Shown piece by piece: positions 7,907-20,918 of a stretch of 64,000 nucleotides of DNA; the first letter of the stretch is position 1, and each line of letters opens with the position of its first letter. Made by a program: the position numbers and the translations under genes. The notes beneath the pieces were generated by a model. It saw only the letters and a list, made by a program, of their open reading frames with translations. It was not told the origin of the DNA and ran no database searches. The DNA comes from Synechococcus sp. BO 8801 (GTDB lineage Bacteria > Cyanobacteriota > Cyanobacteriia > PCC-6307 > Cyanobiaceae): contig NZ_NQKY01000002.1 of assembly GCF_002252675.1 (NCBI RefSeq), positions 62,001 to 126,000 of the forward strand, given 5' to 3'.

Positions 7907-8638
7907 ATGGAGGTGATCAGTCTCTTTCCCCGCTACCTGCTCCAGGGCCACCTCGGCCCCGCCCAGCTGGCCGATCTTCAGGCCATGGCCCGGGGGGTGC
8001 TGGCGGCGCCCGAACGCAGTCCCGATGCCTCGGTGAAGCTGGCCGGCCAGCTGACCCAGCAGCGGGAGCTCGGCCCCGACCATCCCGCCGCCGCCGAGCT
8101 CTGCCGTTCGGTGATCCTGCCGGCCTGCGAGCGCTGGATCCGCCACGTGATCGACCAGCAGCCGCCCCAGGGCCGGGGTCCATGGACGCCGGGCCGCTAC
8201 GGCCTGCAGATGATCGATCTCTGGCTCAACGCCCAGCGCGCCGGCGACTACAACCCCACCCACACCCACGGCGGCAGCTTCTCCGGCGTACTGTTCCTGC
8301 AGGTGCCGCCCCAGATCCGGGCCGACAGCTTCGACGGCCAGCTCTGCTTCCACGGCCCGGAGGAATGGCACATCCAGAGCTTCCGCACCGGCATGGCCCA
8401 CTACGTGCTGCCGGTGCCCGGTGACTTCTATGTGTTCCCGGCCTGGCAGCCCCACTCGGTGCCCCCCTTCCGGGGCGAGGGGGAGCGCTGGTCGATCGCC
8501 TTCAACGTGGTGGCCGTGCCCCAGCCGCCATCGCGCCCCGCCCCGCCGCCGGCCCCTGCCCAGGGGGCTGGGCAGGGCCCCTTGCAGGGCAACGTCTCCC
8601 TCTCCAGCGGCCGACCCCGACCGGGTGGGTTCCTCTAG
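7907..8638 (+). CDS. TIGR02466-like putative 2OG-Fe(II) oxygenase
   Basis: A 243-residue protein. The core YNPTHTHGGSFSGVLFLQVP and the later VFPAWQPHSVPPFRGEGERWS give the His-x-His...His/Arg spacing of the double-stranded beta-helix oxygenase-like family I know as TIGR02466; its substrate is unknown. I chose the ATG at 7907 because a GGAGG lies at 7894-7898; an ATG at 7868 is also in frame. The C-terminal 40 residues are Pro/Ala-rich and unlike the family core. Its 3' end overlaps the likely GTG start of the broken native mutY (8625), which suggests the two were once translationally coupled. Confidence 0.75.
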   Translation: MEVISLFPRYLLQGHLGPAQLADLQAMARGVLAAPERSPDASVKLAGQLTQQRELGPDHPAAAELCRSVILPACERWIRHVIDQQPPQGRGPWTPGRYGLQMIDLWLNAQRAGDYNPTHTHGGSFSGVLFLQVPPQIRADSFDGQLCFHGPEEWHIQSFRTGMAHYVLPVPGDFYVFPAWQPHSVPPFRGEGERWSIAFNVVAVPQPPSRPAPPPAPAQGAGQGPLQGNVSLSSGRPRPGGFL

Positions 8639-8828
8639 GACGCGGCCCCCGCAGCTTCCGGGCCCGATTGGGCCCCTGCGGGCCGATCTGCTCGCCTGGT
8701 GGGAGCGGGAGGGCCGCCACCACATTCCCTGGAAGCTTCACCCCGATGGCTCCCGACCGGGGCCGGGGGAGCCCCTGGCCGCCTACGGGGTCTGGGTCGC
8801 CGAGGTGATGCTGTGCTCTGCGGCATAG
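8625..8828 (+). pseudogene. mutY: Native 5' end of mutY, cut off by element insertion
   Basis: From a GTG at 8625 the frame reads a typical MutY N-terminus: LRADLLAWWEREGRHHIPWK, then GVWVAEVML, where MutY would continue QQTQ. Instead it runs into CSAA and a stop at 8828. The missing continuation QQTQLAVVLPYW is found 11 kb away from 19941. The fragment keeps host-like GC and the overlap with the preceding gene, so I take it as the original chromosomal start, separated from the rest by the mobile element. Confidence 0.88.
8792..8813 (+). repeat. attL: left copy of 22-bp direct repeat in mutY
   Basis: The 22 bases encoding WVAEVML are identical to 19919-19940, and the flanks differ at once on both sides. 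This is the expected junction of site-specific integration into mutY; the true crossover dinucleotide lies within it. Confidence 0.85.
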
Positions 8829-8863
8829 CAAGACTAGGCTGACCATGCCGCCGTGATTCTTGG

Positions 8864-10693
8864 ATGGCACTGGCTTTCTCCTACCGTCGCGTCTCCAGTG
8901 GTGGCCAAGCCAAGGGCGGCAAGTCTGGGCTCCAGCGTCAGGAGCAGGCGCTCGCAGGGTGGTTGCGGGGGCATCCCGAGTTCTCCCTGGCGGAGGAGTT
9001 GATCGACCCTGGGCTTTCGGCCTACAGCGGCACTCACAGGTTGAGAGGCGCCTTGGGGAGGTTCCTGAGAGCGGCCGAGGGTGGAACTGTTCCGGTGGGC
9101 AGCGTTCTGGTGGTTGAGGACTTCCGTCGCTTCAGTAGGGAAGAGCCGGTTGATGCGCTGAAGTCGTTGATCTTCAGCATTTGGGATCAAGGTCTGGGTT
9201 TCGCGTGCTGCGCTTACGAATCCGGGAAGCCCTTGTTCAAGGTTGACGCGGGTGGGATCCACTTGGCGGTTCTCTCCATGATGTTCTCCCAGGCCCACAG
9301 CGAAAGCCAGACGAAGTCCGCCTGGTCACGTGGGGGGTGGAAGAAGATCTATGAGGCCCAGGATCGAGGAGAGCGCCCCAGGCATGGCATCCCCTACTGG
9401 ATCGATCGGGATGAGGCCTGCCCCCAGGATCCATTCCGCCTGAATAGTCACTCCCGAGCTGTCGAGGCGATGTTCAGAATGTGCCTTGCTGGCATGGGGC
9501 AGACACAGATCGCCGACGAGTTGAACAGCGATGGATTCGATCCGGCACCGTCAAGTAAGAACGGACGTTGGAACCGTGGACAGGTCAGCCAGAGATTGAG
9601 GGACTTGGCTGTGACCGGGATGCTTGAGCGGAAGAACAGTCACGACATCCCTGCCTATTACCCGTCCGTGATTAGCCGAGAGATTTTCGATCGAGCACAG
9701 CGGGCGAAGGCAAGCCGGGATCGGAAGAAATCAACCACCAAGGCTAGGAAGGCCCATTTTCTATTCGGTGGCTTGGTTCGGTGTGCTGGTTGCGGATCCC
9801 TACTGACCTACAGGGCAGCGGGTCGCTACGCCCGTCCAGGCCATCCCGGATACATCACATGCATGGACAGTTGCGGTGCTGCAGCCAAGCGTGGTGAGAG
9901 CCGCTGCCGCGAGCAGCTTGGGGCTTGGCGGAAACAGCCAACGATGAATCTTCCGCTGGACGAAGCTGAAGCGCTGTTGATGGCGACGTTGTCGTTGGCC
10001 GACTGGCAGAACCTGTTTCCTGTGCAGAGTGGGCCTGAGGTGGAGGTTCTGCGTAGGCAGATCCGGGCTGCGGAAGATGAGCGGGTCGAGCTTCAAGGCA
10101 GGATTCAGCGCGGCGAAGAGCGCTTGGCTGATGAACTCATGAAGGAGAGCCCGAATGAGACTCAGATTGATGTCTTGACGAAGACCCTAGAGCTCGCTCG
10201 AAGGCTGTTACCTGAGGCGGAGCAACAGGCCGCTGAGTTGAACCTCAGGCTGAGCGAATTGCAACCTGCAGATCCGCTACTTAGTGCTCAGGCCACATCA
10301 AAGAGGGTTGCAGAGTTCTTGTCGGCGGATCTGCGGGATGTTGCTAAGCGGATGCAGTTCAACTCCTGGCTCCAGCAACTTGGTGTCCATTGGGTTGTTG
10401 GTGGTGACCTGATCACTCTTCAGTACAATCGTCCTGGCCCTGAGGGTGATCTCAGTCAGTACTGGGGGACTGTCATAGGTGAGCTTCATGCCTTGCGCGC
10501 CATGGGGCATAAGCGTGGGCTCGCCTTCTTGTTCGCGTGCAGGCGTTGGTTCCAGCGGCTCAAGGAAGGCAAAGCTGAGGTTTCCCTTGTGGATGGACCT
10601 GTTTTGCCTTCAGATGTTGCCGCTGGGCTTCAGGAAATCGTGTATTTCCGTGCCCAGGAAATGGGGGTCGATGCCTCTCTCCCCCTTTCCTAG
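8864..10693 (+). CDS. Large serine integrase
   Basis: A 609-residue serine recombinase. The N-terminal resolvase domain starts FSYRRVSSGGQAKGG, with the nucleophile Ser near residue 11 and the conserved VLVVEDFRRFSREEPVDAL. The recombinase domain (about 165-290) includes GIPYWIDRDEACPQDPFR. A zinc ribbon follows: GLVRCAGCGSLLTYR, then CMDSCGAA. After it comes a coiled-coil stretch rich in Glu/Arg (about 375-465), typical of integrases that use a directionality factor. These enzymes recombine short non-identical attP and attB sites. The gene starts 50 bases from attL, the usual place for the integrase of the element. No excisionase was recognised. Confidence 0.95.
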   Translation: MALAFSYRRVSSGGQAKGGKSGLQRQEQALAGWLRGHPEFSLAEELIDPGLSAYSGTHRLRGALGRFLRAAEGGTVPVGSVLVVEDFRRFSREEPVDALKSLIFSIWDQGLGFACCAYESGKPLFKVDAGGIHLAVLSMMFSQAHSESQTKSAWSRGGWKKIYEAQDRGERPRHGIPYWIDRDEACPQDPFRLNSHSRAVEAMFRMCLAGMGQTQIADELNSDGFDPAPSSKNGRWNRGQVSQRLRDLAVTGMLERKNSHDIPAYYPSVISREIFDRAQRAKASRDRKKSTTKARKAHFLFGGLVRCAGCGSLLTYRAAGRYARPGHPGYITCMDSCGAAAKRGESRCREQLGAWRKQPTMNLPLDEAEALLMATLSLADWQNLFPVQSGPEVEVLRRQIRAAEDERVELQGRIQRGEERLADELMKESPNETQIDVLTKTLELARRLLPEAEQQAAELNLRLSELQPADPLLSAQATSKRVAEFLSADLRDVAKRMQFNSWLQQLGVHWVVGGDLITLQYNRPGPEGDLSQYWGTVIGELHALRAMGHKRGLAFLFACRRWFQRLKEGKAEVSLVDGPVLPSDVAAGLQEIVYFRAQEMGVDASLPLS

Positions 10694-11012
10694 GAGATCA
10701 ACTCTGAAGACGACCTAATCTGAAACGACACGTCAGGAAACAGAGGCGGCTCTGGGGCAAGCGCCCAGCGGGCGAGGTCCGAGAAGACGCTGCGGAAGCT
10801 GAGCGGCGGACGTGGTCAAGCACTGCGCAGGGGGCCACCAGCCACTCAAAGCACACCGGATCCCTGATCACCCAGGGGCGATGGCATGACGCTGGATGTG
10901 ATGGAGTTTGGGGCGCTGTAGAACATAGGCCCATCAACGCTCCAGATCAGAAGCGGGCAGATAATCGAAGGATAAACAGATTTGCACTGCTCCCGGCTTC
11001 TGTATCTGGATG
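10694..11012. other. Non-coding stretch after the integrase
   Basis: 319 bases with no convincing gene on either strand; the only open frames are short and cross the integrase end. No hairpin with a T-run, tRNA or repeat was seen. Confidence 0.6.
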
Positions 11013-11588
11013 TTAGCCAGAAGACGAGCCTGTTCCGATTCCAGGACTTAGCCATGTGGCTGGAGACACATAGAGTTTATCAACTTTGCCGAGAACTCTT
11101 TCGCGAAGCTCTACATTGACATCTAGGCTACCAATGAAGTTGACTGCGCCCCCCTTTGTCTCTTCGATTAAAGTATCCAAGTGAACAACGACATATTGGC
11201 CAGGATGTCTGCGTGCTAGATCATGTAATTGAGTGGGGTCTGCGCTTCCATAGTGGTAAAGGATGTGTTTTGCCTTTCCCCTCTTGCTGACGGTTGACTC
11301 TGCCGACCAGTGGTGGACTACAGCACATCGGGCCCCATAGAGATCGCTTGCTTCACAGTCCAGCTTCCCACGCGAAAGCATCCAGTCAGACACCCAGCGC
11401 TCAAATCTTGGGCCAATATCACTTTCTGTCTCCTCTGCAGCCAAAGAAGCCATGTTATCGATGAAACAGTAAGTGAGAGTTAGAGCTGGTAAGACCCACT
11501 CGCATTCCAGGGACTTCTCCATTGCCCGCCAACTGTGGTCGACGGCACTAGCCAAGATGGTGAATTTCCGAATCGCCTCTGCGTCCAT
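11013..11588 (-). CDS. HEPN-like protein of unknown function
   Basis: A 191-residue all-helical-looking protein. The centre reads SDLYGARCAVVHHWSAES, with Arg87 and His92 spaced as in the R-x4-6-H motif of HEPN domains, many of which are RNases in toxin-antitoxin, CRISPR and abortive-infection systems. The family with LY-x-x-RC-x-x-x-H followed by S-x-GKA is one I have seen only as hypothetical. No partner antitoxin lies next to it, and 840 bases of apparent non-coding DNA separate it from the restriction enzyme upstream on the same strand. The fold call is an inference from one motif; RNase activity is not shown. Confidence 0.55.
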   Translation of the reverse strand: MDAEAIRKFTILASAVDHSWRAMEKSLECEWVLPALTLTYCFIDNMASLAAEETESDIGPRFERWVSDWMLSRGKLDCEASDLYGARCAVVHHWSAESTVSKRGKAKHILYHYGSADPTQLHDLARRHPGQYVVVHLDTLIEETKGGAVNFIGSLDVNVELRERVLGKVDKLYVSPATWLSPGIGTGSSSG

Positions 11589-12428
11589 GTCCTATGTCTG
11601 GCTAACAGCATTTCGAAGGGGTCCGGTATCCATCCTGCTCGGGGTGCTTCGGCGGTATAAGAGGCCTGCGAGTCCACGATAATGCCCTGGAACCGCCTGC
11701 CTGTAAGCGTCGAGAGGCTTATTGGAGAAAATACAGACTCTTCGAGCCTGCAACCCGCCTTCCCGCAGGAGGAGCCTACTTGACCCAGTCTGCGCTGGGG
11801 CGGCCGCCTGGCACGCCGTATCAGGGAAAATTGGAGTGGATTCGGCGGGGCGCATACCTGGAGGGGGCGGTGACTTTCAGGGAAGTTGTCACTGCTTGGC
11901 TGCCACTCAGGCGACCCGAATAAATGGTAGCGCCAGCATCGCTTCTGGGCCCTTTGGTGGCTGGTTGATCCACACTTCTTCTGGTTGACGCCAACAACGG
12001 GTGCGCGGGCTCCAGCGGGCGCCGCTGATTGGGTGATTGCGAGCCCCTAATCATGGATCAGGCTTTCGCAGACCGCCACCCAGTCCATGCGAGTCTTCAA
12101 AACACTGGGGTGAATTAGTGGTATCAATATATTAGCCTCTTACTAGCAGATACCATCTCGTTGATACGCGATATCTCACCATCCTGGCGCGTCGTGATCG
12201 TGAATTTGAAATTGGCCGCAGGACCGTCACTATCACAATCTATGAATTGAGGTTAGCAAGTAAGTATGCAGAGTAGCGCGCCCTACTCTGCGTTCTGCTA
12301 ATCGAGCGAGTTAAGCTAACAAGGCATTCCAAAGGTAATGTAGCCTTCTACCCCCCACCCCCCCCCGTAGAGGCCAAGAGCATTCAACCGCTCCGAGTTC
12401 CTTTGAGTAAACAAGCAATTTATCGATA
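11589..12428. other. 840-base non-coding region with a strong hairpin and a C-tract
   Basis: No frame here has codon use or start signals of a real gene. It holds a 9-bp perfect stem with a 6-base loop at 12268-12291, flanked by an outer GTTAGC/GCTAAC pair (about 12252 and 12316), and a C-rich run at about 12352-12366. It could contain the promoter of the HEPN-like gene, a structured RNA, or an origin for the ATPase. Confidence 0.5.
12268..12291. other. Perfect 9-bp inverted repeat, loop of 6
   Basis: GCAGAGTAG pairs with CTACTCTGC around the loop CGCGCC. There is no T-run on either side, so it is not a standard terminator. It lies about 140 bases beyond the 3' end of the restriction-modification gene. 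Confidence 0.6.
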
Positions 12429-15400
12429 TCAGGTTCTTTCGTTAAGGGCTGGCAGGTTGGCGACGATGTGGTTGGTTTCAACGGACACGCGAGTAATTCG
12501 TTTCACGAGATCAATGATGTAACGGGGGTTGTCATGCTCGCGGCACCAGTCGTTAGGATCGTTCTTGATGCCACTATTTTTGTCTACCGTAATCTGATAT
12601 CGTTCCATGATCCATTCAAGTGCAGGCTTGCCGTTGACGACGTAGTCATAGGCATCTAGCGGGATGCCAGAAAGAGTTACTTTGCTGTTATAGACGATGC
12701 GGGTCTTGTCCCATTTTAATCCCTGGGCCTTCTGCTTAGGGCTGGGTCGGGCAAAGGTCATCTTCTGCAGTTTAAACAGCTCCCATGGATCAATACAGAG
12801 TTCGTCGCATTGTTCCGAGATGTTCGGATGAGGGTCAACAGTCTCGTAGTTAAGATGCATATTGGCGAGATCGCGACCTGCCTGAGTGAAGCACTGGTAG
12901 TCGGCAAGCTCCTTAGTCAAAGGAATCCGTGGCAGCATCTTCTGAAGATCGGCAGCGAAGCGTTCGCGGTATTCAGGTGAGTGAAGGATGCCGTAAACAT
13001 AATAGAATATGTCCTCCTTCTCTACTTTATCGCCATATACGAGACGAAACTTGGCATGTATACCGTCAGTGATGGCATTTCTGCGACGGTAGCCATCAAT
13101 GATTACGACGTCATCATCTTCTGTGTCTAGGTCTAGTCTGCCAGCTATTGCCTGCACCTTTTCATAGAGATATAGGGGGAAGCACTGGACACCTCCATCA
13201 GGATGTAAGTCTGGCAGATTTCCCACTGCTAGCGCACCTATCCCTGACCCACTCCATCGAACTTGCCACATAATCATCAAGTTCTGGTGGTTAATAGTTG
13301 GATAGATCCGTTCTTTGTAGCGGTGATTAAAGTGCTTGTCGTAATATAGTGCAGACTTTGAATATGGACGATAGAGTGATATACCGATCTTTGCCTCTGA
13401 GAAAGTGGTCTTCCGAGACTGACACAGCTTTGCAATAAGGGAGCTAGTCCACTTTATTCGCTTGTCATCTTCAATTACTCGCCTTTTTGCTTCGGCAGGT
13501 GGATCCGACGCTGCTCTGCAAGCCGCTCCATGCGCATCTACCTGTTGGTTGAAGAAGTCAATGCTGGTCTGCATTGTTGTGGCAAGCTTATGGCGCGAAA
13601 AATTGTAAACCCATGCGTCTCTATTAGTTTGAACTCCGTTCTGTCGATCCGCGAAGAACTCCAGTTGTCCGTGATGATCTGAATTCATGGGAATGAACCT
13701 CTGGAATGCCGGATCACGATGATTTATCCAGTCATGAGAGCTGTTGGGCCTAATCCTGCACCATTTATTCTCGCGATTCAGGGCGTTTATACTGACGAGT
13801 CTGGCGATAGTACTTAGCTTTTCCTGACGGGTGAGGTAGTCGCCTATATCGTGGTAGAAGAGTTCTCCGGGCCCTCTCTTTAGAGGGTTTCTGACAAGGA
13901 TAGAGATGGCAATTGGAGTGCGAGAACCTTGGCCGAAGACATTATCCTTCTCCTTGCGGCGCTGTTCACCGGAGGTTCTAGCGTTGCCGCGAAGGTTGAC
14001 TATATATAGCGATGTGAACTCATCTACGAGGCACGCACGTAGGCCGCTGCCTACGTTGGAGTCAATGAATTGGCCGTTGGTTACGAATCCGATAACGCCT
14101 TGTTTGCCTATTCTGTCACTGGCCCAGCGGATCGCTCGGATATATGAGTCGTAGAGAGAGTTTTTATTGATGGCTGCTGAACGGGCGGCGTAGGTTTCGG
14201 TGATTCGAGTGTCGAGAGTGGGGTAAGCGACTGGGTTGTCATTCACCGAATACGGCGGGTTGGCGAGGATAACGCGAATTGGTGCATTCTTCTGCCGTGT
14301 GACGCGCATGTTGTTAACTGGAAACATGACATCTTGCATCTCGGTCTGAGTTTCCGAGACTTCGGTAAGGTTGAACGTATCAGTGAGGACGATGCCATCA
14401 AATGGCACGTATTCGAGACGATCAGCACTCTTGTGACTGTCGTCGTCGTTCGCTCCTGCTTCTTGCTGCAGAGTGTGAAAGGTCTCCTCAATATTGATGG
14501 CGGCTATGTAGTAGGCAAGGAGGACGATCTCGTTGGCGTGGAGTTCATTGGTGAACTTGCGCTGGATGTCTTCGGGTCTGATGAGACCGCTCTGGAGGAG
14601 GCGTGTGATGAATGTGCCGGTGCCGGTAAAGGGGTCAATGATGTGGACGTCCTTTGCGCTTAGAGAGGAATTGAACTCGCTCTGGAGAACGTCTTCAACT
14701 GAACGGATGATGAAATCCACAACCTCTGTGGGGGTGTACACAATGCCAAGGCGTTCGGCAACTGACTTAAAGGCAGTAGCAAAAAACTTCTCGTAAAGTT
14801 CTAGGATTATCTTCTGCTTGCCTTCTGCATTGTCAATGCCAGCAACACGGGTGCGAACGGAAGCATAAAACTTCTCTAAGCTGGCAGTTTCCTTTTCAAG
14901 CGCTTGACCCTCTAGGGCGTCAAGCATCTTCTGCATCGACTGGGATACCGGGTTGAGATCGGAAAAGGCGTAGTCAGCAAAGAGGGCATCGAAGATGGGC
15001 TTGCTGATGAGATGCTGGGAGAGCATCTCAACAGCCTCTTCGCTCGTGATGGCAGGGTTGATATTTTGGTGGAGTCCGGACAAGAACTGGTCGAAGGCCT
15101 TGACATGTTTCGGCCCTCCTTGATCAAGCAGGAGCTGAATGCGGTCAGTGTGGCGTTGTGCAATCTTGGCGACGTCCTCAGCCCATTTGTGCCAGTAACG
15201 GCGCTCCCCGCACTTCTTGACAATGCGTGCATAGAGAGCATCTTTCCATTCTTGGAGCTGATGGGAGAAGTTAAAGGTGTACTGTTGACTTCCATTGGAC
15301 TTTTTATCGGTGCTGTCGCCATCGGATTTTGAACCGGTGTCGTCTGAGACTCCGCCACCTTCTCCGATCCCAATAACGCCAATCTTCGGGGGCGCTTTCT

Positions 15401-17360
15401 TGTTCAGTTCAATCTGATTAATAGTAGCGTTGAAGCGATCATCGTGAGAACGCAGTGCCTGGAGAACTTGCCAGACAATTGCGTATTTCTTGTTGTCCTT
15501 AAGTGCCTCTTCAGGTGTTATGCCAGCAGGGATTCCGATGGGTAGGATGATATAGCCGTATTGCTTGTCCGTAGCTTTGCGCATTACCCGGCCGACGGAC
15601 TGGACTACATCGACGACGGAGTTCCGTGGATTGAGGAAAATAACGGCGTCGAGGCTGGGGACATCAATACCTTCCGAAAGGCAGCGTGCATTGGAGAGAA
15701 TGCGGCAGCGCAGGGCCGGACCTGGCTCCTTGAGCCAATCCAACTTGTGGGCGCGTGTGATGGCATTCATACTGCCATCCACATGGTCTACTTGCACGTC
15801 AAGGAGGTTTTCTTCGTCGGGATGATCTCCTTTGTATGAATCGACGAGTTCTCCGAAGTAGGAACAGAACGCCTTGGAGTCAGCTATGGAACGTGAGAAG
15901 GCGACTGCGGTACGCATTGGGGCGAGATCCCCGTACAGTTCTGCCTCGTCAGTGGTTGTGTGATCAAGCTTTTTCGCGAGCCCGTTCCAGCAGCCTGTGA
16001 TGCGTACGGCATCGTCGAGGGTTAGGGAGTTGTCGGAATCGGCGATCTGAGCCTGGAAGGTCTTAGAGGCGTAGGCTTCATCCACGGCAAGGACGAGTAC
16101 CTTGTAGTCGGTGAGTAGATTCTTCTCGACGGCTTCGCCAAAGCCGAGGCGATGGAACTCTGGGCCGTAGACAGCCTCGTCGTCCATTGAGCACAGAGTG
16201 GCGTCGGCGTCGTCGGCTTTCGATTTAGTCTCGTCTCCATAGACCCGTGGGGTTGCGGTCATGTAGAGGCGCTTGGAGGCGCGAATGTAGTCGTTATCAT
16301 GGATCTTGATGAAGTGGGACTCGTCCTGGTCGGCGAGGGTGACGCCAGTGGTGCGGTGAGCTTCGTCGCAGACAACTAGGTCAAAGTCAGGCAGGCCCTT
16401 CTTCTGCGCCTCGTGGACAGAAGCGATTGAGTGGTAAGTGGAGAACACGACGGCAGTGCCACGGTTTTCCTTGGACTGCTTGCGCTTCTTGATTTTTGAC
16501 TGAAGGGCCTCCCACTGGTGTATGAGCGCTTTTGTGTTAGTCGTGGCGGGAAAGGCAAGATCTGTTACGTCAATATCAACATCGTCAGCGTCCTTCGTCT
16601 TTCGGCGGCCGATACTAGAGTCTGAGCAGACGGCGAGCGCGTGGATAGGTTTGCTAGAGAAGGCAGTCCACTCGCGAAGTGTTTGGGCGAGTAGAGCGAG
16701 AGAGGGAACGAGGAAGAGAACGGTTCCTCCGAGGGCAATCTCTTCGGTGATGGCAAGGGAGGTGTAAGTCTTCCCGGTGCCGCACGCCATTATCAGCTTG
16801 CCGCGGTCATGATCGGCGAAGCACGCCTTGACATCAGCGATGGCGGCTCTTTGGTGAGGTCGGGGGTCACGCTTCTTCTGGAGTTTGAGCCTGTTGATGG
16901 CCTCCAGCGAGAATGTGGACCAGTCCACGGGTGAGGCGTCGAGGTCCTGGACTCGGAGCTTCTGGATCGGCTTGCTCTGGTCCTTAATTGTGTGCTCGAC
17001 ATTCGACCCCCATTTATCTGTGGTTGAGACGATGATGCCGGAGGAAAACTGCCGCTTGCCGAGGGCGGAGAGGAATGAGTCGATATCGCCCTTGGAGAGT
17101 TGGTGCTCGGGCAGATAGAACTTGCACTGGATGCCGACGATATCACCGGTGGCATCTTCCTCCGCGACGATATCGATTCCAATATCGCCACTATCCCCCT
17201 TGAGTGGCCATTCGTTCCAGAGCCATACGTTGGAGAACCGCTCAGCGTATTGCGGGTCGAGTTGGAGGTATCGGCAGATAAGCCGCTCGAACTTGTCGCC
17301 TAGGTCTCGGTTGTTGAGGGCGGCATCGCGGAACTCGGCGAGGATGTTATGGATGCTCAT
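12429..17360 (-). CDS. Type ISP restriction-modification enzyme, single chain
   Basis: A 1643-residue protein uniting all functions of a translocating restriction enzyme, as in LlaGI/LlaBIII. Residues 1-130 form an Mrr/PD-(D/E)xK nuclease (GIDIVAEE at 61, GIQCKFY at 76). About 165-620 form a superfamily 2 helicase: Walker A MACGTGKT, VCDEAHRTTG, LYMTATPR, and SVGRVMRKA. About 700-900 is a coupler. About 905-1200 is a gamma-type N6-adenine methyltransferase: motif I DPFTGTGTF, motif IV ILANPPYSVND. The C-terminal 400 residues would be the target recognition domain. Such enzymes methylate one strand of an asymmetric site and cut unmodified phage DNA after ATP-driven translocation. All visible motifs look intact, so the gene seems functional. 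No separate specificity subunit is needed or seen. Confidence 0.93.
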   Translation of the reverse strand: MSIHNILAEFRDAALNNRDLGDKFERLICRYLQLDPQYAERFSNVWLWNEWPLKGDSGDIGIDIVAEEDATGDIVGIQCKFYLPEHQLSKGDIDSFLSALGKRQFSSGIIVSTTDKWGSNVEHTIKDQSKPIQKLRVQDLDASPVDWSTFSLEAINRLKLQKKRDPRPHQRAAIADVKACFADHDRGKLIMACGTGKTYTSLAITEEIALGGTVLFLVPSLALLAQTLREWTAFSSKPIHALAVCSDSSIGRRKTKDADDVDIDVTDLAFPATTNTKALIHQWEALQSKIKKRKQSKENRGTAVVFSTYHSIASVHEAQKKGLPDFDLVVCDEAHRTTGVTLADQDESHFIKIHDNDYIRASKRLYMTATPRVYGDETKSKADDADATLCSMDDEAVYGPEFHRLGFGEAVEKNLLTDYKVLVLAVDEAYASKTFQAQIADSDNSLTLDDAVRITGCWNGLAKKLDHTTTDEAELYGDLAPMRTAVAFSRSIADSKAFCSYFGELVDSYKGDHPDEENLLDVQVDHVDGSMNAITRAHKLDWLKEPGPALRCRILSNARCLSEGIDVPSLDAVIFLNPRNSVVDVVQSVGRVMRKATDKQYGYIILPIGIPAGITPEEALKDNKKYAIVWQVLQALRSHDDRFNATINQIELNKKAPPKIGVIGIGEGGGVSDDTGSKSDGDSTDKKSNGSQQYTFNFSHQLQEWKDALYARIVKKCGERRYWHKWAEDVAKIAQRHTDRIQLLLDQGGPKHVKAFDQFLSGLHQNINPAITSEEAVEMLSQHLISKPIFDALFADYAFSDLNPVSQSMQKMLDALEGQALEKETASLEKFYASVRTRVAGIDNAEGKQKIILELYEKFFATAFKSVAERLGIVYTPTEVVDFIIRSVEDVLQSEFNSSLSAKDVHIIDPFTGTGTFITRLLQSGLIRPEDIQRKFTNELHANEIVLLAYYIAAINIEETFHTLQQEAGANDDDSHKSADRLEYVPFDGIVLTDTFNLTEVSETQTEMQDVMFPVNNMRVTRQKNAPIRVILANPPYSVNDNPVAYPTLDTRITETYAARSAAINKNSLYDSYIRAIRWASDRIGKQGVIGFVTNGQFIDSNVGSGLRACLVDEFTSLYIVNLRGNARTSGEQRRKEKDNVFGQGSRTPIAISILVRNPLKRGPGELFYHDIGDYLTRQEKLSTIARLVSINALNRENKWCRIRPNSSHDWINHRDPAFQRFIPMNSDHHGQLEFFADRQNGVQTNRDAWVYNFSRHKLATTMQTSIDFFNQQVDAHGAACRAASDPPAEAKRRVIEDDKRIKWTSSLIAKLCQSRKTTFSEAKIGISLYRPYSKSALYYDKHFNHRYKERIYPTINHQNLMIMWQVRWSGSGIGALAVGNLPDLHPDGGVQCFPLYLYEKVQAIAGRLDLDTEDDDVVIIDGYRRRNAITDGIHAKFRLVYGDKVEKEDIFYYVYGILHSPEYRERFAADLQKMLPRIPLTKELADYQCFTQAGRDLANMHLNYETVDPHPNISEQCDELCIDPWELFKLQKMTFARPSPKQKAQGLKWDKTRIVYNSKVTLSGIPLDAYDYVVNGKPALEWIMERYQITVDKNSGIKNDPNDWCREHDNPRYIIDLVKRITRVSVETNHIVANLPALNERT

Positions 17361-17879
17361 ATAGTCAACTCAATGTGGATGTGGTCAATTGACGCTTGAG
17401 AAAAACGAACACTTACCTGCCGTTCGTCTCCTGCGTTGGCAGAGGGGGCTTGCCAGGTCACCAAGCATCCAGTTGGTACAGAAGTTGTAACACGGATTGG
17501 GCTGTCGCAACAAGTCCATTACCCACCTGTTCGTCAAGATGCACCGTTGGCGAGCTTTGAAGAATCGCAGTGTGCCTCTTCTGGAAGATTGAAGGCTTAA
17601 GTCGAGATTCTCTATAGGTAGAAATTGATTCAACCCTTCAATCGTCCTGGTAACTAGGCAGTATCCATTTGACCCTGGCGCCACCTGGTCTCGATTGGTG
17701 CTGATCAGGCCCATCCCCCCCACCCCCCACCCGAAACTGCCTTATTGGTAAGCCAACGGCCATGATCTCTGTTGTCGCAATGTTTTTGGAGTTCAGGGGA
17801 AAGTCCAGAATGCCTCGAATCATAGTCTCGATGTTCTGGTCTCTACGCATCCCTCTTAACCCACTGATGTCACAGGGTT
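17361..17879. other. 519-base non-coding region between restriction enzyme and ATPase
   Basis: No credible gene on either strand. It includes a run of C residues broken by single A residues at about 17711-17728, similar to that beyond the other end of the restriction gene (about 12352-12366). It presumably holds the promoter of the restriction gene. Confidence 0.5.
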
Positions 17880-19289
17880 TTAAGCCTCTGTGTTACCAGT
17901 CGGGTGATGTTCCAGCGGAAGGGGGGGTGCAGGCGACTTGCTGGCTACGCGAAGGCTGTCCAAGTGTTTAGTGCCCCTCGCAGTCAGGAGGTAGCCAGTC
18001 CCTTTACGCTTCAGCATTCCTTCTTGTTTGAGGCGCTGGATTGCGTTGTAGACCGATTGGTTGGGCCGCTTTGTAATAGCGATAATCTGCGCTGCACTTG
18101 TGCTAGCAGTAATCCCTTGTGCCTTCATTGCATGTTGCTGGGCGATTGCCCCCAAGACTTGGTCAGCACAGTTCACATAGTAGTGACCTTCAGTTACCCT
18201 AAGCCCCTCCTCCGTAAACCCGTATGAAAAGCTGCGATAATCGGAACCACGCAACTTTAGTACATGCCAGACCCTGAGCTTTTCTCCGTTGCCGTTTGGG
18301 CGCGACTCAATCATGTGGATTACTGATGGCACCTCCTGAAATGCAGCATGACCACCAATACCTTTGACGGATGCATTCCCAGTCCGATTTGTGTGATGCA
18401 GGATCCACAGTGCGCTGTGTTTACAGACAATCTGTTTGAGAAGTCTCAGATATTCTTCGATGGGACCAATGCCAGGTTGCAATCCAGCTCCACGAAACAC
18501 AGCATTTGCAGTATCAATGATGACCGCACAGATATCTCCTTTCTCCAGGCGACTAGCGAGGCGTTCAAGGTTTGGAAGGCTCATGTTCCAGGGACGCTCG
18601 CCCCGTTCGTCATCCTGTGCCCAAATGACAATCGAGGCTCCCCGTTCGTTTGCATTCACTGAATCCAGATAGTCCTCCCACATCGCGTAGGCGCTCCCAT
18701 CTCCATCGCTTGCGATGATCAAGACAGTGCTGCGGGGATCATCCTCAGGATCGTTGCGAGGTGCTTCCTGGTCCAGGAACCCCCTGTCACGTGTGCTGTA
18801 GACCGTTGCAAGCTCCGCAGCGGCGGTAGATTTCCCTGCAGACGCATCAGCGACCAGCAAATGCAGCTCTTTGTCTATACCAAATCCGGGCAATTGCTGG
18901 CGCAAGCCTTGGGTGTGCCTTTGTTCCCCGAAACGACGTTCCTCGACGTGAATGTTATTTCCGCCTGGAGAAATATCATAGCTATGGCGCTCAGCCCACA
19001 GATATAAGACCCGCTCGTCTGCCCGTTCGCGCTTCAGTCCGAGCTTGAACAATGCACAATAGTGTGCGTCAACTTTGTTGTGATTATTGGCAAGCTTGGC
19101 ATTAAGTAGTTCCTCGATCTCCAGCTCAATCCGTTTTGCTGTTAAGAGGCTGTTGCTGGAAACCAAAGACTTCAAGTTGCCTTTTGGTTCGTTCAGACCG
19201 ATTGAACTGGTTTTTCCGAACTGAGAATGATCCTTATCTAAAGTAGGCACGGTACTTTGCCGATATTCCCTCCGAGGCTGGTTGCGCAC
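17880..19289 (-). CDS. RepA/RecA-like AAA ATPase with C-terminal winged helix
   Basis: A 469-residue protein from a GTG. Around residues 130-330 is a RecA-fold ATPase: LHLLVADASAGKSTAAAEL (P-loop AGKST), TVLIIASDGDG, Walker B ICAVIIDTANAVF and ALWILHHTNRTG. This is the AAA_25/RepA hexameric helicase type often found beside primases on plasmids and chromosomal islands. The last 100 residues look like a winged helix (SAAQIIAITKRPNQSVYNAIQRLKQEGMLKRKGTGYLLT). I infer a role in replication or maintenance of the element. No primase or initiator was recognised nearby. A regulatory role is possible because of the winged helix. Confidence 0.75.
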   Translation of the reverse strand: MRNQPRREYRQSTVPTLDKDHSQFGKTSSIGLNEPKGNLKSLVSSNSLLTAKRIELEIEELLNAKLANNHNKVDAHYCALFKLGLKRERADERVLYLWAERHSYDISPGGNNIHVEERRFGEQRHTQGLRQQLPGFGIDKELHLLVADASAGKSTAAAELATVYSTRDRGFLDQEAPRNDPEDDPRSTVLIIASDGDGSAYAMWEDYLDSVNANERGASIVIWAQDDERGERPWNMSLPNLERLASRLEKGDICAVIIDTANAVFRGAGLQPGIGPIEEYLRLLKQIVCKHSALWILHHTNRTGNASVKGIGGHAAFQEVPSVIHMIESRPNGNGEKLRVWHVLKLRGSDYRSFSYGFTEEGLRVTEGHYYVNCADQVLGAIAQQHAMKAQGITASTSAAQIIAITKRPNQSVYNAIQRLKQEGMLKRKGTGYLLTARGTKHLDSLRVASKSPAPPLPLEHHPTGNTEA

Positions 19290-19724
19290 AGAGCCAGCCC
19301 TTTTCCTCTATCAGAGTCTGATGATTCCGCGCGAGCCCGTGCGTTGGCTCGCTGAGGTTTGGGTTTGCCCCTTGAGGGATCGGGGCCTTCTTCTTTTTTC
19401 TATCATGGATCCAGGCGCCTGGAGAGACGGCCTTTGCTGTTGCAGATTGCAAACTGGCCTCTCATCTTTCGTCCTGTAGCGCAGTCGGGCCATCCCCAAA
19501 TTTAAAAACTTTTTATTTTGACTTCGGGCATCGCAATCGACATTTTCCGATGCAGTCACCCAATTGGTTGCTATGGGCTGGCAGCGGCTTGGGCTTTCAT
19601 GCGGGCCGTTCCAGCGTGTTCTCAAGCATCCATCGCAGGGATTTCATGAGCATTCGGGAGGCCAGATGCGACGCAAGGCAGTCCCGCTGCTTGGACGAGC
19701 CTCCCTTGAGGGGGTGGATTGCCC
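19290..19724. other. Non-coding stretch before the hybrid mutY
   Basis: 435 bases with no recognised gene. An A/T-rich patch around 19500-19520 in otherwise GC-rich DNA is a plausible promoter site for the element-borne mutY start, since the native promoter is now 11 kb away. A GAGGGGGTGG at 19708-19717 is a likely ribosome-binding site. Confidence 0.45.
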
Positions 19725-20918
19725 ATGCCAACTGACGCGCAAGGACCCATGTCCGACCCTGATCTGAGCGGGCTGGCGGACCAGGCTCCGCTTCTGCGGC
19801 GACAGATTCTGGACTGGTGGGAAGCCCATGGACGGCGCCGCATCGACCAGAAGCCCTGGATGTTCACGCCGGATGGCCGCTGGCCAGATCCAGGCGAAGA
19901 GCTGTGTGTCCTAGAGTGCTGGGTCGCCGAGGTGATGCTGCAGCAGACCCAGCTGGCGGTGGTGCTGCCCTACTGGCACCGCTGGATGGCGGCGTTTCCT
20001 GACGTTGGGACCCTCGCCGCCGCCAGCGAGCACGACGTGCTGATGCTCTGGCAGGGCCTGGGCTACTACGCCCGGGCCCGCCGTCTGCACGCGGGGGCGC
20101 GGCAACTCGTCGCCGGCGCCCAGCCATCGGCTGCGGGCAGCGGCGACCCCTGGCCGCGCAGCCTCGAGGGCTGGATGGCCCTGCCGGGCATCGGCCGCAG
20201 CACCGCCGGCAGCATCCTCTCCTCCGCCTTCGATCGGCCCTTCGCGATCCTTGACGGCAACGTCCAGCGGGTGCTGGCCCGGCTGATGGCCCACCCGGTT
20301 CCGCCGAAGCGGGAGCTGGCCGGGTTCTGGCGGCTCAGCGAGACCCTGCTCGACCCGCAGCGGCCCCGCGCCTTCAACCAGGCCCTGATGGACCTGGGCG
20401 CCGGCGTCTGCACCCCCCGCCAGCCCGCCTGCGGCACCTGTCCGTGGCAGCCGCACTGCGCTGCCTACGCTGCCGGCGACCCCGGCCGCTTCCCCGTGAA
20501 GGACACCCCCCCGCCCGTGCCGTTCCAGGTGATCGGGGTGGGGGTGGTGTCGGACGCTGCCGGCAGGGTGCTGATCGACCAGCGGCTCCCGGAGGGCCTG
20601 CTCGGGGGGCTGTGGGAGTTCCCGGGGGGCAAGCAGGAACCGGGCGAGGCGATCGAGGCGACGATCCGGCGCGAGCTGCGCGAGGAGCTGGCCATCGAGG
20701 TGACGGTGGGGGAGGAGCTGATCACGCTCGAGCACGCCTATAGCCACAAGCGGCTGCGCTTCGTGGTGCATCTCTGCCGCTGGCTGGCGGGGGAGCCGCA
20801 GCCGCTGGCCTCTCAGCAGGTGCGCTGGGTGGCGCCGGATGAGCTCGCCAGCTACCCCTTCCCGGCCGCCAACGCCCGCATCATCGCGGCGCTGGAGGCA
20901 AGGATCGCGGCGGGGTGA
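19725..20918 (+). CDS. mutY: Adenine DNA glycosylase MutY, hybrid with element-supplied start
   Basis: A 397-residue MutY that removes A mispaired with 8-oxoG. From WVAEVMLQQTQLAVVLPYW on it is the native gene. It has the helix-hairpin-helix LPGIGRSTAGSI with the following catalytic Asp in FAILDGNVQRVLARL, the iron-sulfur ligands C-x6-C-x2-C-x5-C (CTPRQPACGTCPWQPHC), and a C-terminal NUDIX-like 8-oxoG domain (LWEFPGGKQEPGEA, RRELREELAIEV). The first 65 residues come from the mobile element and differ from the displaced native start at 8625: RRRIDQKPWMFTPDGRWPDP replaces GRHHIPWKLHPDGSRPGP. ATG 19725 is preferred; a TTG at 19719 and an ATG at 19749 are in frame. It overlaps tsaE tail-to-tail. 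Confidence 0.93.
   Translation: MPTDAQGPMSDPDLSGLADQAPLLRRQILDWWEAHGRRRIDQKPWMFTPDGRWPDPGEELCVLECWVAEVMLQQTQLAVVLPYWHRWMAAFPDVGTLAAASEHDVLMLWQGLGYYARARRLHAGARQLVAGAQPSAAGSGDPWPRSLEGWMALPGIGRSTAGSILSSAFDRPFAILDGNVQRVLARLMAHPVPPKRELAGFWRLSETLLDPQRPRAFNQALMDLGAGVCTPRQPACGTCPWQPHCAAYAAGDPGRFPVKDTPPPVPFQVIGVGVVSDAAGRVLIDQRLPEGLLGGLWEFPGGKQEPGEAIEATIRRELREELAIEVTVGEELITLEHAYSHKRLRFVVHLCRWLAGEPQPLASQQVRWVAPDELASYPFPAANARIIAALEARIAAG
19919..19940 (+). repeat. attR: right copy of 22-bp direct repeat in mutY
   Basis: Identical to 8792-8813. To its right mutY continues natively; to its left is element DNA that encodes a homologous but different MutY N-terminus. Confidence 0.85.

Follow-up and report, generated by a model that had tools for sequence, protein, structure and literature searches.

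A serine-integrase island in mutY of Synechococcus sp. BO 8801 that very probably replaces the 5' end of the gene

Mobile elements are usually seen as disrupting the genes they enter or as sparing them. The tycheposons of marine picocyanobacteria use tyrosine recombinases at tRNA genes, and the SpyCI islands of Streptococcus, which lie in mutL, switch that gene off and on. In the 64,000-nucleotide stretch of Synechococcus sp. BO 8801 analysed here (contig NZ_NQKY01000002.1, positions 62,001 to 126,000; hereafter the window), an 11,127-bp island with a large serine integrase splits mutY, the gene of the adenine glycosylase MutY. The island very probably replaces the 5' end of mutY and leaves a full-length hybrid, and it is very probable that this was repeated in the family, so that a housekeeping repair enzyme would have been rewritten again and again. 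As with SpyCI, the island lies in a DNA-repair gene, but mutY stays whole: its frame is uninterrupted after integration, in contrast to the inactivation of the target by mutator-switch islands of the SpyCI type.

Islands and prophages in dusA of Proteobacteria replace the 5' end of that gene, giving a hybrid protein, and may restore it; insertion at other genes is rarer, and the contents are diverse, the integrase being the sole universal part (Farrugia et al. 2015, PMC4482086). As at dusA, the 5' end of a housekeeping gene is here supplied by the island and the native 5' end lies at the far junction. The dusA islands differ in having a tyrosine recombinase, in their target and in their proteobacterial hosts, and none of the known flavin- or tRNA-binding residues lies in the part that they replace. 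The mutY islands carry an integrase with serine recombinase domains instead of the dusA-associated tyrosine integrase, are found in cyanobacteria, exchange about 68 codons and appear to cross over in a catalytic codon.

In Elizabethkingia anophelis, the integrative and conjugative element (ICE) ICEEa1 lies at position 841 of mutY, with loss of the last 57 of 342 residues and a probable mutator phenotype; it has a CTnDOT-like integrase and sits elsewhere in six other strains (PMC5458099). Its presence in mutY is also named in PMC8694125. ICEEa1 is likewise an integrative element inside mutY, but it truncates the gene, whereas the island in the window rebuilds it. Islands are said to reconstitute often the genes that they enter (PMC12884075, a 2026 paper), and in the mutY passages of PMC5785829 the gene serves solely for typing. 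No report of a mutY-restoring island was found in the literature searched, among the matches listed and with few subscription papers covered. An earlier note on this DNA, made from the sequence alone, had taken the arrangement as new. This holds for the mutY target, the serine integrase, the crossover in a catalytic codon and the recurrence, but not for the principle, already known from dusA (PMC4482086), that the island exchanges the 5' end of the target for one of its own.

The island in mutY and its native flanks

Genomes are labelled G000 for that of the window (3.27 Mb, 99.7% complete; window on contig 11) and with other G numbers for relatives. The island is flanked by two copies of a 22-bp repeat, CTGGGTCGCCGAGGTGATGCTG, which are 100% identical and form the longest perfect direct repeat reported within 8500-20500 (Table 1). 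The left mutY frame, for which the GTG start at 8625 was inferred by eye, reads ...AAYGVWVAEVMLCSAA followed by a stop. The right frame (19719-20918) is an uninterrupted MutY of 399 codons with HhH-GPD, 4Fe-2S and NUDIX_4 domains; its ATG start at 19725 was picked by eye, the frame being also open from TTG 19719. The G+C content per 500-base block is 45-61% in 9000 to 19999 and 64-76% outside. The integrase, with Resolvase and Recombinase domains, begins 50 bp past the left repeat and reads inward, and no tRNA was found in the window.

When the host flanks are joined at the four bases GAGG within the repeat, they match G009 at 95.2% over 2,870 bp, unbroken across the junction, and G003 at 93.4% over 2,690 bp; the matches to G002 (92.7%) and G001 (91.5%) also span the junction. 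These four nearest relatives have an uninterrupted mutY across the site and carry an N-terminus of the native type. The high identity of the mutY body to G009 carries on beyond the end of the gene. The DNA of 19300-19928 has no match in any of the four, and of the five genomes compared only G034, of the same genus, matches it (81% over 140 bp). The N-terminus tree places the left fragment with G009 (90% over 52 columns) and the right N-terminus with G034 (72% amino acid identity over 58), while in the body tree the MutY body of G000 groups with G009, G003, G002 and G001. The short type of N-terminus, with I, L or V before P-W as in the left fragment, was observed in 27 of the 29 other genus members extracted, the exceptions being G034 and G040.

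Because the joined flanks align unbroken to G009 and four related islands share the layout, the layout is more than chance. The insertion of a serine-integrase island in mutY, as claimed in the earlier note, is confirmed by the repeat, the domains, the empty site and the related islands. Its further claims, a native left fragment and an element-encoded N-terminus joined to the native remainder in a chimeric full-length MutY, agree with the flank DNA and the trees, and the alignment with element-free relatives that it had proposed gave the empty site described above. The left fragment as an unrelated second glycosylase gene is ruled out by its 90% identity to the G009 N-terminus.

Table 1. Features of the island and of the two parts of mutY in the window
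Feature	Position	Strand	Evidence
Native mutY 5' remnant, cut past the crossover, stop supplied by the element	8625..8828	+	90% to G009 N-terminus; left-flank DNA 95.5% to G009 over 1,415 bp
attL repeat, crossover bases GAGG at 8802-8805	8792..8813	+	Repeat; G225 off-target site; attP symmetry
Large serine integrase, 609 aa	8864..10693	+	PF00239, PF07508; phrog_95 integrase; orthologues in mutY
191-aa open reading frame (ORF), no Pfam match, weak phrog_18591 (unknown function)	11013..11588	-	
Type ISP restriction-modification enzyme, 1643 aa, cargo	12429..17360	-	PF18135, PF22240, PF13156, ResIII, N6_Mtase; PADLOC REase_MTase_IIG 2127 bits
AAA ORF, 469 aa	17880..19289	-	AAA_25 26.4 bits, slightly below cut-off 27; unmatched in PHROG and PADLOC
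Element-borne mutY N-terminal segment, about 68 codons	19725..19928	+	No DNA match in G009, G003, G002, G001; counterpart travels in related islands
attR repeat, crossover bases GAGG at 19929-19932	19919..19940	+	Repeat; G225 off-target site; attP symmetry
Native mutY body (presumed catalytic Glu onward, Fe-S, NUDIX domain)	19929..20918	+	94.9% to G009 over 1,469 bp from the crossover; domains

Related islands and the crossover point

An integrase search of 399 genomes of the order, G000 included, gave any match in 30. Full-length relatives with 68-69% identity were found in five genomes (G225, G085, G054, G131 and G241), and five of the six full-length integrases of this type, that of G000 included, sit in mutY. 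In G085, G054, G131 and G241 the order is a mutY N-terminal fragment, the integrase, the rest of the island and a full mutY; these islands measure 7.4-9.6 kb, and 7.4-11.1 kb when that of the window is included. Among the 30 integrase loci listed, a mutY piece lay inside the 1.5-kb flanks of six: G000, G085, G054, G131, G241 and a degraded locus in G378. On this count mutY targeting seems to be a trait of this integrase clade, and a general tendency of serine integrases to enter mutY was rejected. In G378 a degraded integrase stands beside a left fragment and the full mutY opens another contig, consistent with a single broken-up island, and in G120 (C2:1536000-1547000) the remains of two tandem islands lie upstream of mutY. 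In a sample of the phylum, at an E value of 1e-20, the integrase matched in 4 of 339 genomes, with full length only in G000 and G054, and a scan of genome contigs gave Synechococcus sp. AG-679-C18, whose contig is that of G241, and, in part, AG-670-F04. A scan of viral contigs found no such integrase, and none of 50,697 phage records contained the mutY N-terminus of the G085 island.

Over 9,657 bp the islands of G085 and G131, whose hosts belong to two genera, share 98.2% identity, against 73-80% in the flanking matches. One and the same element N-terminus (MGQRRSAEHRDF...NVLEC) occurs in G085 and G054, which are of one genus, and in G131, which is of another; it is joined to a different body in each, and the native left fragments of the three differ as well. 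The union of these genomes as one group on MutY bodies is rejected by the approximately unbiased (AU) test (p-AU 0.00013). G225 (C1:1105000-1117000) serves as a natural control: its island lies outside mutY and splits a cobW-like gene, with the CobW domain on one side and CobW_C on the other; the right end of the island retains an orphan mutY N-terminus of 78 codons, and the mutY of G225 is whole and elsewhere. The split cobW-like gene adjoins znuA/znuC-like genes, named from reading the ORFs.

The integrase of the window has PF00239 at residues 4-152 and PF07508 at 197-284. The motif YRRVSSGG is present in it and in those of G225, G085, G054 and G131 (five of six), whereas that of G241 (L144:8121-9941) reads YRRVFTGG; the serine after YRRV we take to be the catalytic serine of large serine recombinases.

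The recombination point is the GAGG within the 22-bp repeat, and the repeat exceeds the crossover because the attachment site of the island, attP, encodes the same MutY residues. When attL and attR of G225 are compared in register, GAGG is the sole shared run of more than two bases in the 22-bp core, with mismatches on both sides. The dyad symmetry of attP, as assembled from the island ends, peaks on the GA of GAGG in all four distinct elements, with 39 of 64 arm positions matched against 28 at the next centre, and GA is the top of 42 centres with 16-bp as well as with 22-bp arms. All six islands examined break at this GAGG, with the integrase starting 61-62 bp from the crossover. Its GAG encodes the glutamate of AEVMLQQT, a motif to which SEVMLQQT corresponds in solved MutY structures, and this glutamate is presumably the catalytic one. 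From the off-target site of G225 and the attP symmetry, the crossover is placed in this GAG codon and would thus fall in the codon of the presumed catalytic glutamate. The 24 nt before GAGG show 75-79% identity between the element of the window and three others, compared with 55-56% in the preceding 141 nt; this fits a constraint from attP, although the conserved W-A-E is encoded in the same stretch.

For these islands, the large serine integrase is predicted to recombine attP with a host site, attB, over the conserved mutY motif AEVMLQQT, with the exchange in the GAG that encodes the presumed catalytic glutamate. Because attP would lie within a copy of the mutY 5' end that the element carries, integration would cut off the host N-terminus, which stays behind as a dead piece ahead of the integrase, and would fuse the N-terminus of the element in frame to the host MutY body. 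Since a full-length hybrid enzyme would be kept in this way, landing in a housekeeping gene would no longer carry a cost. Since the elements would later decay or vanish while the foreign N-terminus remains, mutY 5' ends would be overwritten repeatedly in the family.

Recurrence, scars and rival readings

MutY bodies were required to contain AE-V/I-M-L/P-QQT and an open frame, and 73 of 75 fetched genes were kept as a non-random sample, in which family members were picked partly by N-terminus score and genes split or not fetched were never included. The two genes excluded for broken frames, those of G052 and G117, each have a premature stop and are otherwise readable downstream; they are possibly natural mutY-defective strains or sequencing errors. 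The element-type label was assigned from the N-terminus itself. Its core (L-[EDQH]-C-W before A-E) was found as an exact pattern in 12 of the 399 genomes and in none with the reversed control; G052 and G159 have the same core residues and were missed by the exact pattern.

On the body tree, a quick tree of the 73 proteins with 13 element-type rows, the label needs 12 changes (shuffled mean 12.2, 291 of 500 as low), of which at least 9 are forced by the starred branches; gains and losses are not distinguished in this count. The element-type rows as one clade on MutY bodies are rejected at p-AU 2e-6, the AU test, here as above, presuming that the group is named before the tree is seen. The N-terminus tree disagrees with the body tree: on its 84 rows and 61 columns, with 15 labelled rows because the orphan of G225 and G052 were added to the 13, the label needs 3 changes against a shuffled mean of 14.0 (0 of 500 as low), but this clustering is partly circular because the label derives from the N-terminus, and over the 61 columns the starred branches force only 1 change. 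The left fragments, which are independent of the label, group with the N-termini of host relatives in G000, G085, G054 and G378, with mostly modest support. Together this suggests that islands were inserted in mutY many times in the family.

Besides the two limits on the tree tests, several observations weigh against repeated replacement by islands. Eight of the 13 labelled genomes carry the element-type N-terminus without an intact island in mutY. One further case is G034, which lacks a close integrase, in which no second mutY fragment was found, and which yet has a G000-like N-terminus. The left fragments of G131 and G241 are placed within the genus only and not beside the nearest body relatives of their hosts. 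The N-terminus of G046 and a middle fragment in G120 have an element-like start and a native-like end, a pattern for which one clean exchange is not enough, and the present mutY of G120 is not of the ECW type despite the remains of two islands upstream. The symmetry of attB is weak, GA being best in the sum only with 16-bp arms and the single best centre only in G241, and the off-target site of G225 has no attB symmetry favouring GA. The integrase copy of G241, with the presumed catalytic serine gone, is probably dead or immobile. The integrase as agent, the activity of the hybrid MutY and the movement of islands between cells we infer from sequence.

Five of the eight genomes without an intact island in mutY, plus G046, have island remnants immediately before the gene. 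In a remnant search around mutY in 16 genomes, resolvase remnants of the island were found immediately before the gene in six (G225, G046, G378, G296, G079 and G073), and G296 and G046 also retain a decayed left fragment. The search gave no match in G034, G112, G363, G218, G182 and G159, matches elsewhere than mutY in G052, G065 and G150, and in G120 a match at the degraded island. Since the nearest relatives are of the native type and the remnants adjoin mutY, the element-type N-termini without an intact island are read as scars. Insertion, empty site, exchange, recurrence and those scars that have remnants can be followed in the sequences, while the element-like N-termini of G034, G065, G182, G159 and G052, before which no remnant was found, may be scars as well. 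Element-free relatives with the right-hand type of N-terminus had been named in the earlier note as telling against it; G034 and others are such genomes, so the objection applies weakly; the four nearest relatives are of the native type.

In G225, mutY has an element-type N-terminus and is immediately preceded by a resolvase remnant (71%), and about 14.4 kb upstream lies the remnant of a terminase; the gene therefore probably once held an older island. In G034, about 1.2 kb separates the conserved upstream gene from mutY, with no recognisable mutY piece there. This gap (contig C13), which has almost no counterpart in the left flank of the window, holds by eye a GGDEF-like frame on the opposite strand. 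Extra N-terminus matches in G052, G079, G112 and G218 were short and weak only and were not accepted as second fragments.

The dN/dS of eight element-type N-termini was 0.02-0.15 in 21 of 28 pairs, those without G159; in the seven pairs with G159, which differs most at its start, it was 0.15-0.32, a point on the other side. The low values indicate that the element segment evolves as a protein, and from this purifying selection a working hybrid would be expected; we conclude that the segment probably serves to keep MutY working. An AlphaFold model of the hybrid, made from two sequences, had a mean pLDDT of 48, was unusable and gave no structural support.

The earlier note had suggested that the swap of the N-terminus might tune a mutator state. 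In this reading, as with the Streptococcus islands in mutL, a weaker hybrid or a changed expression context would give a mild mutator, and excision would reverse it. The element N-terminus does read V-L-E-C where the aligned native ones read Y-G-I/V, before W/L-I/V-A-E, the hybrid is read from different upstream DNA, and an ICE in mutY probably made the Elizabethkingia outbreak strain a mutator (PMC5458099). With purifying selection on the element segment, the invariant W, G-R, P-W and A-E positions retained and the N-terminus type persisting in several species without an intact island, such tuning is unlikely, and this part of the note is not supported.

A related idea, doubtful though less so, is that integration also swaps promoters. 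The short distance from the crossover leaves little room for a promoter, so the integrase, once integrated, might be read from the host mutY promoter, and the MutY of the host from the island. The resolvase ORF and the mutY start overlap (TGATG) in G085, G054, G131 and G225, which might make MutY the final gene of an operon of the island; while the island is a free circle, this operon would extend into the integrase. The earlier note had claimed a new promoter for the chimeric gene; promoter scans, that of 19250-19760 among them, found no sigma-70-like site. If promoters were exchanged, oxidised-guanine repair of the host would vary with the state of the satellite or its helper phage, and mutY 5' ends would spread through picocyanobacteria by way of the mobile N-terminus.

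Alternatively, homologous recombination could swap mutY 5' ends between species, with the islands merely nearby. Element-type N-termini in genomes without an intact island and the mosaic N-termini of G046 and G120 would agree with this, as would G007, in which two 267-bp mutY ends, 98% identical, stand around a small insert as a duplication would leave them. It would not account for the same GAGG breakpoint in six islands at a near-constant distance from the integrase, for the N-terminus brought into an unrelated gene by the G225 island, or for the resolvase remnants adjoining mutY in 6 of the 16 genomes searched, and it is regarded as very improbable. That the right-hand mutY is a whole foreign second gene carried by the island and the left fragment a dead native copy, as an intact right-hand and a broken left-hand gene might suggest, has next to no probability and is ruled out by the body, which is native in its DNA past the gene end, groups with G009, G003, G002 and G001 and is foreign only before GAGG.

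With replacement of the 5' end by serine-integrase islands, whole-gene mutY trees in the family mix two histories. The hybrids would offer naturally segment-swapped MutY enzymes on which the tolerance of N-terminal changes can be tested. The serine integrase, with its crossover mapped and its attB predictable in a conserved gene, is a possible genetic tool in relatives of Synechococcus.

Satellite features and a second type of insert

The island of G085 encodes a DUF3854/AAA replication-like protein, a resolvase with a stop overlapping the mutY start, and DUF305 and DUF411 proteins. Its 161-aa protein matches a terminase small subunit family (phrog_6299, 1.4e-11) and is 25-28% identical to the terS region of cyanophages PSS2 and S-CBS2 (five records, terS annotated in four). 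Islands of the G085 type are therefore candidate cyanophage satellites; with an integrase, a replication-like protein and a TerS like that of PSS2 and S-CBS2, they presumably resemble known phage satellites and tycheposons. A TerS match was not found in G000, and the island of the window has only the weak AAA ORF, possibly a replication helicase, and restriction-modification cargo. The scan for capsid genes covered part of the island ORFs. The Type ISP restriction-modification gene looks intact. More genes resembling terminase small subunits occur away from mutY (G085:C1:337548, G131:C1:558703 and G046:C14:78016), perhaps in other satellites.

In G007 (L075:4990-6450) and G363, which belong to two genera, an insert of about 1.2 kb with a nucleotidyltransferase/HEPN pair (from Pfam in G007, decayed in G363) and no integrase was observed at the mutY site. 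The inserts have a mutY N-terminus on either side, of which the left ends in GAGGTGATGCGAGCAGCC, lie at the same crossover point and are 80% identical over 783 bp. DNA similar to this insert also adjoins mutY in G173, G035, G039 and G163, and some match was present in 73 of 329 genomes, many of them elsewhere. In G173 the decayed left junction is visible.

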